DNA of 35,042 nucleotides from Clostridia bacterium (GTDB lineage: Bacteria; Bacillota; Clostridia; Oscillospirales; CAG-272), in assembly GCA_017411605.1 (NCBI GenBank), contig JAFQPR010000100.1, positions 1 through 35,042 on the forward strand. The letters are read 5' to 3'. Position numbers and translations under genes: made by a program. Numbering within the stretch: the stretch's first letter is position 1; each line of letters begins with the position of its first letter. Shown here in pieces: positions 13,501 to 18,275 of the stretch. A model generated the notes under the pieces. That model did no database searches. It saw only the letters and a program-made list of their open reading frames with translations, and was not told the origin of the DNA.

Positions 13501-14433
13501 ATGGCAGAGCTCGCTTTAAAAGAACTACTTTATGAATTGAAAAATCCCGAAGCGCTTGTTGCCGAGGATGAGTTGGAATACTCTAAAAAAATAGAAGATG
13601 TTGCAAAGAAGGTCTGCGAGGCGGAAAATATACGCGTCGTACTTCTTGCGGGACCGTCAGCCTCGGGAAAAACAACGACAGCTAATCTTATCTCCGATAA
13701 AATAAAGAGCCTTGGTGAAAAATCCATCGTCGTATCGCTTGATAATTTTTATCGCGATGCGGATGATAAGAAGTATCCGCGTCTTGAAGACGGTACGCGT
13801 GATTTCGAGAGTCCTTATGCACTTGATATTGATGATCTGATAAAAACTCTTGGATGCATTATTGAAGGTAAAGAATTCGACGTGCCGACGTATGATTTCA
13901 AGCAGGGACGTCGTGTTGATGTAACGCACTACCCGAGCTATGCCGACGGTTGCGTTATTATTGAAGGCATTCACGGCCTTAATCCTATTCTTTCGGATCC
14001 GTTCCCGAAGGAAAACGTACTTAAGCTCTTTGTCAGTGTTTCAACTAATATAAACGATGACGGAAAACGTATGCTTTCGGGAAGAAAGATTCGTTTCCTC
14101 AGACGTATGGTAAGAGATAATCTTTACAGAGCTGCCGATGCATACACAACAATAGCAATGTGGCAAAACGTTCTTCTCGGAGAGGATAAATACCTGTATC
14201 CCTATAAAAAGCTTGCAGATCTCAGCTTTGACACCTTCCATAATTTTGAGCTCGCGGTTCTTAAGCCCTATGCAGAAATGCTTTTGACCGGGGAGGTTTG
14301 CGAGCATAGCGGTTATGCTCATACCGTAGCGAGCGCTCTTGCAAAAATACCTTCGCTTGAGAGCAAAATAGTACCTGAGACATCTCTTATAAGAGAGTTT
14401 ATTCCGGGTGGAATTTACGAGGATCTTTATTAA
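13501..14433 (+). CDS. Uridine kinase/phosphoribulokinase-family nucleoside kinase
   Basis: The protein has 310 residues. P-loop LLAGPSASGKTTTAN is at about 48-62 (Walker A GPSASGKTT), then VSLDNFYRD (acceptor-site Asp), DFESPYALD, and VIIEGIHGLNP (Walker B-like). It ends with SLIREFIPGG. It shares its whole kinase core with the C-terminal half of the protein at 14592-16295, including DNFYRD/DDYYID, EGIHGLNP and IREFIGG-type ends. It presumably phosphorylates a nucleoside or similar small hydroxyl compound; the substrate is unproven. It starts after AAAGGAGAGC. It converges on its paralogue with a shared terminator. Confidence 0.85.
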   Translation: MAELALKELLYELKNPEALVAEDELEYSKKIEDVAKKVCEAENIRVVLLAGPSASGKTTTANLISDKIKSLGEKSIVVSLDNFYRDADDKKYPRLEDGTRDFESPYALDIDDLIKTLGCIIEGKEFDVPTYDFKQGRRVDVTHYPSYADGCVIIEGIHGLNPILSDPFPKENVLKLFVSVSTNINDDGKRMLSGRKIRFLRRMVRDNLYRAADAYTTIAMWQNVLLGEDKYLYPYKKLADLSFDTFHNFELAVLKPYAEMLLTGEVCEHSGYAHTVASALAKIPSLESKIVPETSLIREFIPGGIYEDLY

Positions 14434-14591: not shown

Positions 14592-16295
14592 TTATTTTCT
14601 GTAAAAACTGTTTCCGCCGATAAACTCTCTGACGATGCTTGTGGGCGGGATTTCGTCATCCACGTCAGCCTCGTGAACGTAGTTTAGTATCTTTACAATT
14701 GCACGTACTTGGTCATAGCATTCGTCGGAGGCTTCTATGACTGTCAGGAGCGGGAAGATATGCTTTTTGAGGACCGCAAGCTCATAAAGTGTTGAGCTGT
14801 TGAAGATAACGTCTGCGTTTTCCTGATACGGGAATATCCACTTTTCCTCACCTCGTCTGACCGAGTCCCACATTGAAAGGGTCCTTTGCACCGAAGCGCC
14901 CCGAGTTTCAAAGTCACGTACAGTTCTGCGTAAGAGCCTCAAGTAGCTTGTCGGGATACGGTTGTGATAGTCGAGTGAAAGCGGTAGCAGGGGACTGACG
15001 TACATTTTGAATATGAGATTGGAAGGAAGCTCTTTTGGTAGAAGGATAGGATTCAATCCGTGTATACCTTCAACTATAATTACAGAGTTGTCCTTGAGAC
15101 GCAGCTTATGACCGAGATATATCCTTCGTCCAAGCTTGAAATCAAAGCTCGGGAGCTCGACCTCTTCGCCTCTGAGTAATTCCGAGAGCTGCTTACCGAA
15201 AAGCTCCGTGTCGATGGTGTTTATATGCTCAAGGTCAATTTTACCGTCGGGACCCGGGATTATTTTATCTCTGTCTATATAATAATCGTCAAGGCTTATG
15301 AGAATCGGGCTTTTTCCGTGCACTCTGAGCTGAGTTGCAAGTCGGTTTGCGGACGTTGTTTTTCCCGATGAGCTGGGGCCTGCCAGCATAACTGCCTTCG
15401 CGCCTCTTTCGCATATCATATCCGCTATTTTGGAAAATTTCTTCTCGTGGAGAGCCTCGTTGACTCTGATAAGCTCTCTTATTTTTCCGCTTTCAACAAG
15501 GCGGTTGAGGTCCGATACCGTTTCGCATTCCATAAGCTCGCACCAACGCTTGCTCTCGCTTGACATACTGAAGAAATTGGGACTGCCCACATAATCGGAG
15601 ACCCTGTCGGGGTCTTTCGCATCGGGGTAGATAAATATAAAGCCTTCGGGCGCGGATATTATATCCCAGGAGCGAAGAAAACCTGTTGACGGAGCCATTT
15701 CACCGTAGAAATAGTCAAGAAATCCGTTGTTTTCGTATACGTCGATGCGTTCCTTTTTTCTATACGAAAGAAGTTCTGCCTTGTCGGTCTGTCCTATACT
15801 TTTATAGTATTCAATAAGATCCTTAGTCTGCATTCTGCGCCTGTAGAGTGGAAAATTCTCATCCGTTATACGTTTTACTTCTTCTTCAAGCCGTTTGGCT
15901 GAAAAATCGGCAGCGCCCGTGACCTTGAAATAAAGTCCTTGGCCGATAGTGCAGTTCATACTGCCCTGCGCGTCGGGCCAAAGCCGCTTCAAGGCCAGAA
16001 AAATTATGAACTGCGCCGTTCTCGTGTATGCATCTCGTCCGATAGGGTCTGTGTATTTTATGAGATTGATTACACCGCCCGATGCCGCCATTGCTGTACG
16101 TATCGATTTTCTATCAGGTGTTTGATCTTTTTTACGCACGGGTATGTAGTTAAGCGTGAAAACTCTTCCTGCTATTTTTGCAACGATAGGATCGGTTGAA
16201 AGCCGTCCTTTTATGAGGTCGAGTCTTTTTGCAAGATCGAGTAAGGATTCCTCGGCTTCCGCTACTATTTTCTTTCCATCTATATAAAGTTCCAT
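14592..16295 (-). CDS. Nucleoside kinase with N-terminal TGS/ThrRS-like region
   Basis: The protein has 567 residues. Residues 1-60 look like a ubiquitin-fold TGS-type domain (MELYIDGKKIVAEAEES). Residues 60-280 resemble the second additional domain of threonyl-tRNA synthetase, but its metal-binding His-x3-His is not evident. The kinase part begins near 295 with MLAGPSSSGKTTSANRL (Walker A 306-314), then LISLDDYYIDRD, IDLEHINTIDTELF and VIIVEGIHGLNP, and ends SIVREFIGGN. The fusion is a known but uncharacterised Firmicute/Bacteroidetes architecture annotated as uridine kinase or nucleoside kinase. It starts after AAAAGGAGAGC, 26 bp behind the small membrane-protein gene, and so lies under the purine riboswitch. 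Confidence 0.85.
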   Translation of the reverse strand: MELYIDGKKIVAEAEESLLDLAKRLDLIKGRLSTDPIVAKIAGRVFTLNYIPVRKKDQTPDRKSIRTAMAASGGVINLIKYTDPIGRDAYTRTAQFIIFLALKRLWPDAQGSMNCTIGQGLYFKVTGAADFSAKRLEEEVKRITDENFPLYRRRMQTKDLIEYYKSIGQTDKAELLSYRKKERIDVYENNGFLDYFYGEMAPSTGFLRSWDIISAPEGFIFIYPDAKDPDRVSDYVGSPNFFSMSSESKRWCELMECETVSDLNRLVESGKIRELIRVNEALHEKKFSKIADMICERGAKAVMLAGPSSSGKTTSANRLATQLRVHGKSPILISLDDYYIDRDKIIPGPDGKIDLEHINTIDTELFGKQLSELLRGEEVELPSFDFKLGRRIYLGHKLRLKDNSVIIVEGIHGLNPILLPKELPSNLIFKMYVSPLLPLSLDYHNRIPTSYLRLLRRTVRDFETRGASVQRTLSMWDSVRRGEEKWIFPYQENADVIFNSSTLYELAVLKKHIFPLLTVIEASDECYDQVRAIVKILNYVHEADVDDEIPPTSIVREFIGGNSFYRK

Positions 16296-16321: not shown

Positions 16322-16591
16322 TTATTCCACCTCTCCGATGGCGGAATTATTTATATTACGGTATATCTTTCTTATCTTGCTTCGGATAAGATGAAAAAGA
16401 TTTATAAATACAAGGCAAACGTTCATTAAGACTATCGGCCACGTTCCGTAAACAGCCGCATATATCGCGCTGATAACAGAGCCGCATATATTAAAGAAAC
16501 GGAGCTTGTTAACGTTCGTCATGGTCATTGAAAAAATAACTAAAAACGTTCCTGCGTATCCAAATAATTCAAAAGCGATTTTGGGATTCAA
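16322..16591 (-). CDS. Small three-helix membrane protein (YgjV/SemiSWEET-like), TTG start
   Basis: The protein has 89 residues and begins with TTG. A perfect AGGAGG (16599-16604) lies 7 nt upstream, and no in-frame ATG suits better. Hydrophobic segments lie near 8-26, 30-48 and 50-68, followed by a basic cytosolic tail (HLIRSKIRKIYRN). The pattern FGYAGTFLVIFSMTMTN plus a helix with LMN recalls small YgjV-type or SemiSWEET-type (PQ-loop) proteins. The family call is tentative. It is the first gene behind the purine riboswitch, so it is a candidate transporter of a purine-related compound. This is inference. Confidence 0.6.
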   Translation of the reverse strand: MNPKIAFELFGYAGTFLVIFSMTMTNVNKLRFFNICGSVISAIYAAVYGTWPIVLMNVCLVFINLFHLIRSKIRKIYRNINNSAIGEVE

Positions 16592-16681
16592 AAAAGCACC
16601 TCCTGTGTTTTTATTACAGTTTTATTAATTATATTACGTCACCGAGAAAATGTATACCGAAATATACGGTACCGTTCGGCA

Positions 16682-16723
16682 AAAAAATAAAAATGACTAC
16701 TCTTGATGATCATCAAGGTAGTC
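16682..16723 (-). terminator. Riboswitch expression-platform terminator
   Basis: On the minus strand GACUAC (16718-16723) pairs with GUAGUC (16695-16700) around an inner UUGAU/AUCAA stem with loop GAUC, then AUUUUUAUUUUUUU. The outer 5' arm is the aptamer's own J3/1 and P1 3' strand. Without those bases only a weak AU-rich 5-bp hairpin is left, so aptamer folding and termination exclude each other. Confidence 0.85.
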
Positions 16724-16775
16724 AACCATTATCGGTGGTCAGTAGAAACGCCTGCCCCTATCGCAGGCTTATACC
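16717..16775 (-). ncRNA. Purine riboswitch aptamer (guanine-type core)
   Basis: Read on the minus strand, all conserved parts of the purine aptamer are present. P1 is GGUA/UACC, and J1/2 is UAA. P2 is GCCUGC/GCAGGC with loop GAUAGGG. J2/3 is GUUUCUAC. P3 is UGACCA/UGGUUG with loop CCGAUAA, and J3/1 is AC, followed by UACC. The loops keep the GG and CC that form the kissing pairs. The base equivalent to position 74 is C, which in this class reads guanine or hypoxanthine. P1 is only 4 bp. A strong promoter lies upstream and a terminator overlaps the 3' end. Confidence 0.92.
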
Positions 16776-16793
16776 AAGCATTAAAGCACTGTT

Positions 16794-16864
16794 AATCCGA
16801 AGCAGCTTAAATGATTTTGCAAAAAAATAAAGGCGCAAGTGCATATTTAAAGCAGCTTTGGATT
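16794..16864 (-). ncRNA. 5'-terminal leader hairpin before the riboswitch
   Basis: The leader RNA starts with AAUCC, which pairs with GGAUU about 65 nt later. Between them AAGC/GCUU, GC/GC, UUAAAU/AUUUAA and UGCA/UGCA also pair, about 21 bp with small mismatches and a 19-nt U-rich loop. The predicted transcription start falls at or next to the first stem base. It could protect the 5' end or be a second regulatory element; it matches no family I recognise. Confidence 0.6.
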
Positions 16865-16867
16865 GTT

Positions 16868-16896
16868 AGTATATCACATATTGCACCAATTGTCAA
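16868..16896 (-). promoter_or_regulatory. Promoter of the riboswitch transcript
   Basis: On the minus strand TTGACA (16891-16896) and TATACT (16868-16873) are 17 bp apart, with a TG extension (TGATATACT). Confidence 0.92.
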
Positions 16897-16942
16897 GTGA
16901 TTTTTTAAAATATTTGTTCAAGATGGCTATATCGGAATGCGA

Positions 16943-16983
16943 TAATAAAATAATCCCCGAACGATGCTTATGACCGCTCGGGG
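16943..16983 (-). terminator. Terminator of the cysteine desulfidase gene
   Basis: On the minus strand CCCCGAGCG pairs with CGTTCGGGG (16955-16983), one G-U pair included, followed by ATTATTTTATT. Of the 16592-16991 gap, the rest is the riboswitch leader. Confidence 0.8.
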
Positions 16984-16991
16984 TATTATAA

Positions 16992-18275
16992 CTATTTACA
17001 TTCGGTATTCATCATTATATTTAAAATCTCTCGGTCTGTATCCTTCATACCGTCCCTTGCGAGGCGGCAGACGTTTTCAATGGTGTTTTCAACGCCTTTT
17101 TTAACGATACCGTCTCCTCCGAAGAACTGATTTCCCGAGCGAAAAAGATTAAAGCCGAGAATTCCGTTTTCAACCGCTGTTGCAATTTTTGCAGCGCAGC
17201 TCGCTTTAGCTCCGTCGCAGATAAGTCCCGAGTCAATAGCAAGGGCGTTGACTAGGGTATGCGCGACCTCGCGGAATCCTCCGCCGTGAAGGTATGCGAT
17301 TCCCGCGCCCGCTGAAGCGCCGGCGGCTACAGCTCCGCAGTATGCGGAAAGCGTGCCTATACCGTGCTTGATATGTAGAGTCAGAAGGTTAGATAACGCT
17401 AAGGCTCTGTAGAGCTTCTCCTCGGGAAGCTTCATATCTTCCCAGTATATGTACACGGGAATAGATGCGGTCATACCTTGGTTACCGCTGCCCGAGTTGA
17501 TTATAACGGGGAGCTCGCAGCCGTTCATTCTCGCATCACTGCCTGCTGCAGCATAAGCCTTTGCCTTGACGCTTATATCGTTTGCGTACGAGGATAGATA
17601 TACCTTACCGATATTGGCGCCCCAATTGCCCGAAAGTCCCTCTCTTGCTATTGCCATATTGTACTCTATTTGCCTTGCAAGAGCGGGTTTTACGTCATCA
17701 ATATTGCACTCCTCGGCAAACTTCACAATTTCCTCAACGGAAAGACCTTCCTTCTTTTTTTCCTTTGGAGGATCTATTTTGCCTTCGAATATAACGTTTC
17801 CGTTTTTCTTTATAAGAACGATATTTGTATGCTTAGAGGCTATTCGTACGAATGAGCTTTCATCTTTATTGTAAAGTGAAAGGCAGATATCAAACGCAAG
17901 CTCTGAGTCGGACATAGTAAGCAGGACGGGAAGAGTTTCTGATACTTCTTTCATTCTTTTTATATCGCCCTCTGTAACACCCGATAGAACCTCAAGCGAT
18001 GCGTCCGCATTTCCCCCTACGAGTCCTGCGATTACAGCAGCCTCAATACCTCTCATTCCATCGGTGTGAGGAACAACAACGCTCTTTGCATTTTTTATGA
18101 TATTTCCGCTGACCTCTATTTCGCACCTGTCGGGAAATGCGCCGAGAACAGCCTTTGCTTTTGCCGCAGCGTATGCTATCGCGATAGGCTCGGTGCAGCC
18201 CATAGCGGGCACAAGCTCCTCCTCAAGAACCTTGCAGAAATATTCATATTTTTCGTTTGTAAGACAACACGCCAT
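16992..18275 (-). CDS. L-cysteine desulfidase / UPF0597 (YhaM-CyuA) family protein
   Basis: The protein has 427 residues. Related enzymes (archaeal CdsB, enterobacterial CyuA) use an oxygen-sensitive [4Fe-4S] cluster to split L-cysteine into pyruvate, ammonia and sulfide. They share the fold of iron-sulfur serine dehydratase alpha chains. Markers: VPAMGCTEPIAIAYA near residues 22-36 (key Cys in GCTEP), NSGSGNQGMTASIPVY near 260, and LICDGAKASCAAKI near 345 with two more Cys. It starts after AAGGAAAC and is led by a consensus promoter; its own terminator lies downstream. Serine or another beta-substituted amino acid remains possible as substrate. Confidence 0.85.
   Translation of the reverse strand: MACCLTNEKYEYFCKVLEEELVPAMGCTEPIAIAYAAAKAKAVLGAFPDRCEIEVSGNIIKNAKSVVVPHTDGMRGIEAAVIAGLVGGNADASLEVLSGVTEGDIKRMKEVSETLPVLLTMSDSELAFDICLSLYNKDESSFVRIASKHTNIVLIKKNGNVIFEGKIDPPKEKKKEGLSVEEIVKFAEECNIDDVKPALARQIEYNMAIAREGLSGNWGANIGKVYLSSYANDISVKAKAYAAAGSDARMNGCELPVIINSGSGNQGMTASIPVYIYWEDMKLPEEKLYRALALSNLLTLHIKHGIGTLSAYCGAVAAGASAGAGIAYLHGGGFREVAHTLVNALAIDSGLICDGAKASCAAKIATAVENGILGFNLFRSGNQFFGGDGIVKKGVENTIENVCRLARDGMKDTDREILNIMMNTECK

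Follow-up and report, generated by a model that had tools for sequence, protein, structure and literature searches.

A guanine-type aptamer ahead of a YgjV-like gene in a Clostridia bacterium is probably a transcriptional ON switch that works by the mechanism of pbuE, the adenine riboswitch of Bacillus subtilis. We assign this reading a probability of about 0.78, with guanine as the predicted ligand and with ON direction and kinetic control likewise predicted. Ligand-induced ON control as such is well supported by the anatomy of the RNA and by its evolution. The window, i.e. the whole stretch of DNA that was analysed, comprises positions 1-35,042 of contig JAFQPR010000100.1 (GCA_017411605.1; Oscillospirales; CAG-272), and the relatives of the host suggest that it is a gut dweller. 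The elements of the switch and its genes are as follows.

16868..16896, minus strand: promoter, TTGACA (16896-16891), 17 nt, TATACT (16873-16868), with TG before the -10 box; 11 of 12 consensus matches
16776..16867, minus strand: 5' leader from -10 to P1, 92 nt, with a U-run and a single copy of a 13-nt repeat (sequence)
16699..16796, minus strand: purine riboswitch aptamer (RF00167, 52.4 bits)
16772..16775, minus strand: P1 5' strand GGUA, pairing with UACC 16720-16717 (sequence)
16750..16768, minus strand: P2 hairpin GCCUGC-GAUAGGG-GCAGGC (RF00167 match and folding)
16742..16749, minus strand: J2/3 GUUUCUAC, including U47 (16748) and U51 (16744) (sequence, alignment)
16724..16740, minus strand: P3 hairpin GACCA-CCGAUAA-UGGUU (RF00167 match and folding)
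16721, minus strand: C74, the ligand-reading base (sequence; C in 34 of 34 loci)
16694..16724, minus strand: terminator hairpin, its 5' arm made of the P3 end, J3/1 including C74, and the P1 3' strand, 16720-16717 (folds, shuffles)
16681..16693, minus strand: terminator U-run UUUUUAUUUUUUU, U5-A-U7 (sequence)
16599..16604, minus strand: ribosome binding site AGGAGG (sequence)
16322..16591, minus strand: YgjV-like small membrane protein, 89 aa, TTG start (PF10688, E 1e-6, 29.1 bits against 23.5)
14592..16295, minus strand: uridine-kinase-like protein, 567 aa, PRK domain, next gene downstream (profiles)

The covariance model RF00167 matches over its full length at 16796-16699 (minus strand), well above the cut-off of 37 bits (E 2.7e-6). 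It is the sole match in the window that attains the gathering score, and no other purine match was found in the genome, which is 82% complete. An earlier sequence-only reading had described a complete minus-strand purine aptamer with a ligand-reading C and had proposed to score it with this model; the whole-model match and C74 at 16721 bear it out. In the Rfam version P3 is longer and has G72 (16723) as its last base. Related loci, 34 including the window, are described below, and 31 of them were aligned, leaving out L136 (long L3), L109 and L118. Invariant in 31 of 31 are the pocket bases U20, A21, U22, A23, G46, U47, U49, C50 and U51, and also A52, C53, C74, U75 and A76. Variable are position 48 (U or C), position 73 (A in 22, U in 9) and position 72 (G in 30, A in 1). 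Insertions into J2/3 or J3/1 were not found among the 31 aligned sequences. The GG of L2 and the CC of L3, which form the kissing-loop contacts of the purine aptamer, are equally invariant, window included. Judged by its bases, the pocket is a canonical guanine-I core in all 31 (C74, U22, U47, U51; junctions without insertions). An adenine riboswitch is ruled out by C74 in place of U74, the mark of the adenine class (PMC11477304), and guanine-II by a J2/3 without insertion, that insertion being its defining feature (PMC9295807).

The terminator makes use of the 3' side of this aptamer. Along the RNA it consists of U (16724), the outer 5' arm GACUAC (16723-16718), CUUGAU-GAUC-AUCAAG (16717-16702), a bulged A (16701), the outer 3' arm GUAGUC (16700-16695) and A (16694). 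That GACUAC is J3/1 plus the P1 3' strand including C74 had been claimed from the sequence, and the letters confirm it. Because the 5' arm is J3/1, C74 and the P1 3' strand, aptamer and terminator are mutually exclusive, as in pbuE; the inner hairpin UUGAU-GAUC-AUCAA (16716-16703) is compatible with both states. The MFE fold of the leader contains the terminator and lacks P1 (z -2.33; 5 of 200 shuffles fold equally well). Folding with and without a constrained aptamer, likewise proposed beforehand, favours the terminator state by about 12.6 kcal/mol (ensemble energies of -51.5 kcal/mol for the terminator and -38.9 kcal/mol for the aptamer).

When the middle was shuffled and the J3/1 arm kept fixed, an equally stable hairpin arose in 0 of 200 and 0 of 300 shuffles (two runs). 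Geometry alone, at any energy, is easily reached (211 of 300 shuffles for the window; across loci, 11.6 passes expected from middle-shuffling against 32 observed), so energy and conservation carry the weight. A chance hairpin is ruled out by the equal-energy shuffles and by conservation. A simple terminator scan did not include the main hairpin among those listed for 16550-17000, probably because of the bulged A. The same scan listed three other hairpins in this interval, including a weak terminator-like one at 16672-16654, downstream of the U-run, which lies between switch and gene and is clear of the aptamer.

Conservation was followed through the YgjV-like protein, scanned in one genome per species with a pattern biased to close relatives. 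Among 39 such loci, 33 carry Oscillospiraceae, Ruminococcaceae or Clostridia in their titles and 22 name a ruminant gut sample. An Rfam purine aptamer lies upstream in 21 of the 39 (14 of 20 plus 7 of 19), and a pattern for an aptamer with GGUA in P1 is present in 27 of the 39; in one of the 12 pattern-negative loci (L108) an insert breaks up the aptamer. The proteins of 8 of the 27 aptamer-bearing loci measure 179-214 aa. These 27 loci, the window and six further ones make up the set of 34. The overlapping terminator was found in 32 of the 34 (25 of the 27, the window and the six), and at most 5 of 300 shuffles match each in energy; the U-runs of L111 (four U only) and L138 were set by hand. 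A kinase of at least 250 aa follows downstream in 26 of the 34. In the genus of the window, 13 of 69 genomes have the YgjV gene and 12 of these 13 have an upstream purine match at E <=0.001, the thirteenth being G061, whose contig equals in length that of L136, a locus where the aptamer pattern is present with a long L3; the matches of G006, G013 and G018 lie under the Rfam cut-off, and that of G013 is interrupted.

Several loci depart from the common layout. L109 and L118, left out of the terminator count, have no terminator. There the ribosome binding site has a possible pairing partner in J3/1 and the P1 3' strand, in the stretches from 2919 (L109) and 2908 (L118) up to the YgjV start, at weak duplex energies (-6.8 and -4.5 kcal/mol); both loci are candidate translational ON switches. 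Inserts in P3/L3 with the terminator retained occur in L108 (about 100 nt) and L136 (a hairpin). Between switch and YgjV gene, L111, L116 and L124 show, by eye, a rubredoxin-like reading frame.

Evolutionary evidence for the terminator comes from position 73, next to the ligand-reading C. This position is unpaired in the Rfam aptamer structure, so covariation there speaks for the terminator helix itself. It is A or U and its partner in the terminator changes with it: the two pair in 14 of 16 distinct arms against a permuted mean of 7.3, and 0 of 10,000 permutations reach as high (31 rows, 16 distinct arm pairs), with partners picked through MFE folds, which is biased towards pairing. Positions 72 and 71 show no significant covariation (2482 and 6993 of 10,000 permutations). 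L113, whose C74 is unpaired in its MFE fold, was left out, and covariation was counted by script because MAFFT left the terminator 3' arms out of register. In a tree of 26 kinase proteins (8 of the 34 loci were left out, the kinase being absent, cut off or not found) the A/U label at position 73 takes three changes, all three forced by starred branches. The base beside the ligand-reading C is thus rewritten together with the terminator, which, if the ON reading is true, offers a direct way to study how sensing is traded against switching.

The pbuE-like ON mechanism might here serve 8-oxoguanine, 2'-deoxyguanosine or xanthine instead of guanine, which would explain the unusual genes. The class of 8-oxoguanine riboswitches is an ON class. 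Guanine-type aptamers have changed ligand repeatedly (PMC9295807), the YgjV/kinase operon was not met among published guanine-switch targets, and the U at position 73 in 9 of the 34 loci is a non-usual J3/1 base. We nevertheless consider another ligand unlikely, given pocket bases and junctions that are canonical throughout the alignment and a window that is not among the nine and has A73.

Upstream of the aptamer, the near-consensus promoter which the sequence-only reading had noticed stands (11 of 12 matches, TG before -10). Within 160 nt upstream of P1, the top-scoring sigma-70-like pair has at least 10 of 12 matches in 30 of the 34 loci, window included, counted without a shuffle control. 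The leader of 92 nt compares with 7-43 nt in the 33 other loci. A 13-nt direct repeat, TTTATTTTTTTGC (minus strand), occurs at 16831-16819 and at 16691-16679 and brackets aptamer and terminator; the long leader with its repeat may have arisen by insertion or be left over from a terminator duplication. Terminator and gene are separated by a spacer of about 80 nt with a promoter-like site, TATACA-17-TATAAT (16656-16628, 10 of 12), of a kind that occurs at chance rate. Transcription from this site could bypass the switch. Long leader and spacer would suit a switch that has decayed or is bypassed in this genome and has little regulatory effect, a reading that overlaps with that of an ON design. 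It is very unlikely, since the switch is intact in all its parts (aptamer, terminator, promoter and ribosome binding site), as are the two reading frames.

To place the switch among its neighbours, RF00167 was searched in 147 relatives, 69 genus genomes and 394 order genomes (overlapping sets, strict filters), which gave 91 distinct hits. Their targets are xpt (19), BMP (16), FAD-dependent dehydrogenase (15), YgjV (13), guanine deaminase (9), NCS2 permease (7), kinase (4), MATE (2) and others (6); in one of the four kinase switches (G055) the YgjV gene comes first. One representative each was profile-checked for xpt, BMP, FAD-dehydrogenase, guanine deaminase, MATE, NCS2 and purE, and that of guanine deaminase scored 364 bits, under its curated cut-off of 375. 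The position of C74 was set by hand in 8 of the 91 hits, of which G013 is doubtful. A first automatic ON/OFF classing had mixed P3-containing hairpins with true terminators and was replaced by the question whether a compact terminator contains C74. Such terminators were found in 11 of 13 YgjV, 4 of 4 kinase, 8 of 15 FAD-dehydrogenase, 1 of 2 MATE and 2 of 9 guanine-deaminase switches, and in 5 of 19 xpt, 3 of 16 BMP, 0 of 7 NCS2 and 2 of 6 other switches.

The YgjV operon (15 of 17) is thereby set apart from xpt, BMP and NCS2 taken together (8 of 42; Fisher p 1e-6, kinship ignored), also when at most 5 of 200 shuffles are allowed to match (15 of 17 against 3 of 42, p 2e-9, kinship ignored). 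Two switches first filed under others belong to these classes: G106 precedes an xpt gene and has C74 in its terminator (1 of 200 shuffles), and G420 precedes a BMP gene and lacks this feature. Adding G106 gives 9 of 43 (p 2e-6), or 4 of 43 with the shuffle limit (p 8e-9), kinship again ignored. One of the five xpt and two of the three BMP switches with such a terminator keep within 5 of 200 equal-energy shuffles. The sole purE switch also has C74 in a terminator (U-run at +65, 3 of 200) yet was left unclassed because a separate hairpin sits at its first U-run. The xpt switch G106 (entry L027) and likewise G010 contain C74 in the terminator, and some xpt switches may be of ON or mixed design.

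Most guanine-deaminase switches lack a compact C74-containing terminator, as the strand taken up by theirs seems to be the 5' strand of P3 or the 3' strand of P1. L019, L072, L080 and L011 are guanine-deaminase switches with C74 whose terminators are seemingly built on the P3 5' strand and J3/1. Judged by eye, the guanine-deaminase switches of this order look ON, which is metabolically sensible; judged by the C74-containing terminator, 8 of 15 FAD-dehydrogenase switches also look ON. The FAD-dehydrogenase switches L010 and L015 have UUC as J3/1 and L018 has GUC, not GAC, and an altered pocket is possible in all three. A further C74 switch with overlapping terminator (L106, 4924-2912, minus strand) precedes a MATE protein with a cytidylate-kinase-like C-terminal domain.

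The sequence-only reading had deduced that ligand binding blocks the terminator and turns expression on, which it held to be unusual for a guanine reader. The deduction is supported by the guanine pocket, by the strand shared in 32 of 34 loci and by the covariation at position 73. As to its unusualness, guanine riboswitches commonly reduce expression when guanine is plentiful (PMC9295807), and four OFF guanine switches are described in C. difficile (PMC11477304). That it is strongly unusual is only partly supported: ON control by a guanine reader is in itself no novelty, as guanine-II is already predicted to be ON according to PMC9295807, and the guanine-deaminase and part of the FAD-dehydrogenase switches of this order look ON as well.

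Least probable is an ordinary OFF switch, in which the ligand would favour the terminator as in xpt, a reading in line with that common behaviour of guanine-I, with aptamer-free terminators of the order's xpt (11 of 19), BMP (11 of 16) and NCS2 (4 of 7) switches by rough first classing, and with the weak hairpin at 16672-16654, but at odds with a strong leader terminator that requires C74 and the P1 3' strand, both withheld by the bound aptamer, and with a leftover inner hairpin that, with P1 held, stops 9 nt short of the U-run.

The anatomy thus points to ligand-dependent anti-termination: the pocket is of guanine type, and J3/1 and the P1 3' strand serve both aptamer and terminator. RNA polymerase would make the aptamer before the terminator, and binding of guanine or hypoxanthine would lock C74, J2/3 and the short P1 (GGUA/UACC). 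The invading strand GUAGUC would emerge some 21-26 nt past C74. With ligand absent it would displace P1 and J3/1 and complete the terminator; with ligand present the invasion would stall, the polymerase would clear the U-run and the YgjV-like and uridine-kinase-like proteins would be made. In folds of the growing transcript, which include neither ligand nor tertiary contacts, the probability of P1 before invasion rises to about 0.3 at most; P1 is possible until 17 nt past C74, and by 26 nt the terminator has formed completely. The wide equilibrium margin in favour of the terminator implies that function would depend on kinetics, and it fits the kinetic control described for pbuE (PMC7707468).

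By its Pfam family, the first protein of the operon is a predicted small membrane protein. The YgjV profile matched a SemiSWEET structure at a non-significant E of 0.72; the best of the three matches (E 0.49) was an unrelated protein. The 567-aa protein scores 85 bits against the NCBIfam uridine kinase, under the cut-off of 180. A second uridine-kinase-like gene at 13501-14433 (plus strand) lies tail to tail with the one at 14592-16295 (minus strand). The most likely role of the operon would be purine overflow: to move, dispose of or re-phosphorylate purines when guanine is plentiful.

More tentatively, and with the odds somewhat against it, we propose that canonical guanine aptamers of gut Oscillospiraceae and allied Clostridia fall into two sets. 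Genes for uptake and salvage (xpt, BMP, NCS2) would carry mainly OFF switches, and genes for disposal (guanine deaminase, FAD-dependent dehydrogenase, MATE, YgjV with its nucleoside-kinase-like partner) would carry ON switches of the pbuE kind. A division into disposal and acquisition would fit the ON-like and the mainly OFF-like targets. The possibly SemiSWEET-like YgjV would then be an unrecognised guanine-induced purine exporter or transporter. Should the main reading of a guanine-responsive ON switch be true, it would hint at what the uncharacterised YgjV-like membrane protein and its kinase partner do. It would also provide a conserved guanine-I aptamer that is naturally joined to an ON platform, so that one pocket could be compared in OFF and ON devices.

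In open-access papers we found no literature that links YgjV with a riboswitch or a purine riboswitch, and within the papers searched the combination of a conserved guanine-I aptamer, an ON platform like that of pbuE and a YgjV/kinase operon appears to be undescribed. The closest known system is pbuE, with which the window has in common the aptamer fold, a terminator whose formation disrupts P1 and P3, ON direction (predicted for the window), a small hairpin present in both states (P4 in pbuE) and a terminator as the most stable state (PMC7707468). In pbuE, the terminator is most stable irrespective of ligand and the hairpin common to both states leads strand exchange (PMC7707468). The window differs by C74 instead of U74, by other genes, by a P1 of 4 bp and by a terminator that extends only to the end of P3. 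With guanine-I switches of the xpt type it shares the aptamer and the pocket contacts U22, U51 and C74 (PMC9295807), whereas xpt is OFF and the terminator of the window overlaps the 3' side of the aptamer. The xanthine-II and 8-oxoguanine variants have the same guanine-like scaffold and differ by an altered pocket, with U51G in xanthine-II; some xanthine-II architectures are consistent with ON control (PMC9295807). Guanine-II of Paenibacillus, finally, is likewise a guanine reader predicted to be ON, but is distinguished by a single-nucleotide J2/3 insertion, by most other xanthine-II-like changes and by its location mainly before phosphoribosyltransferase genes (PMC9295807), whereas the switch in the window combines a canonical guanine-I core with a YgjV/kinase operon.
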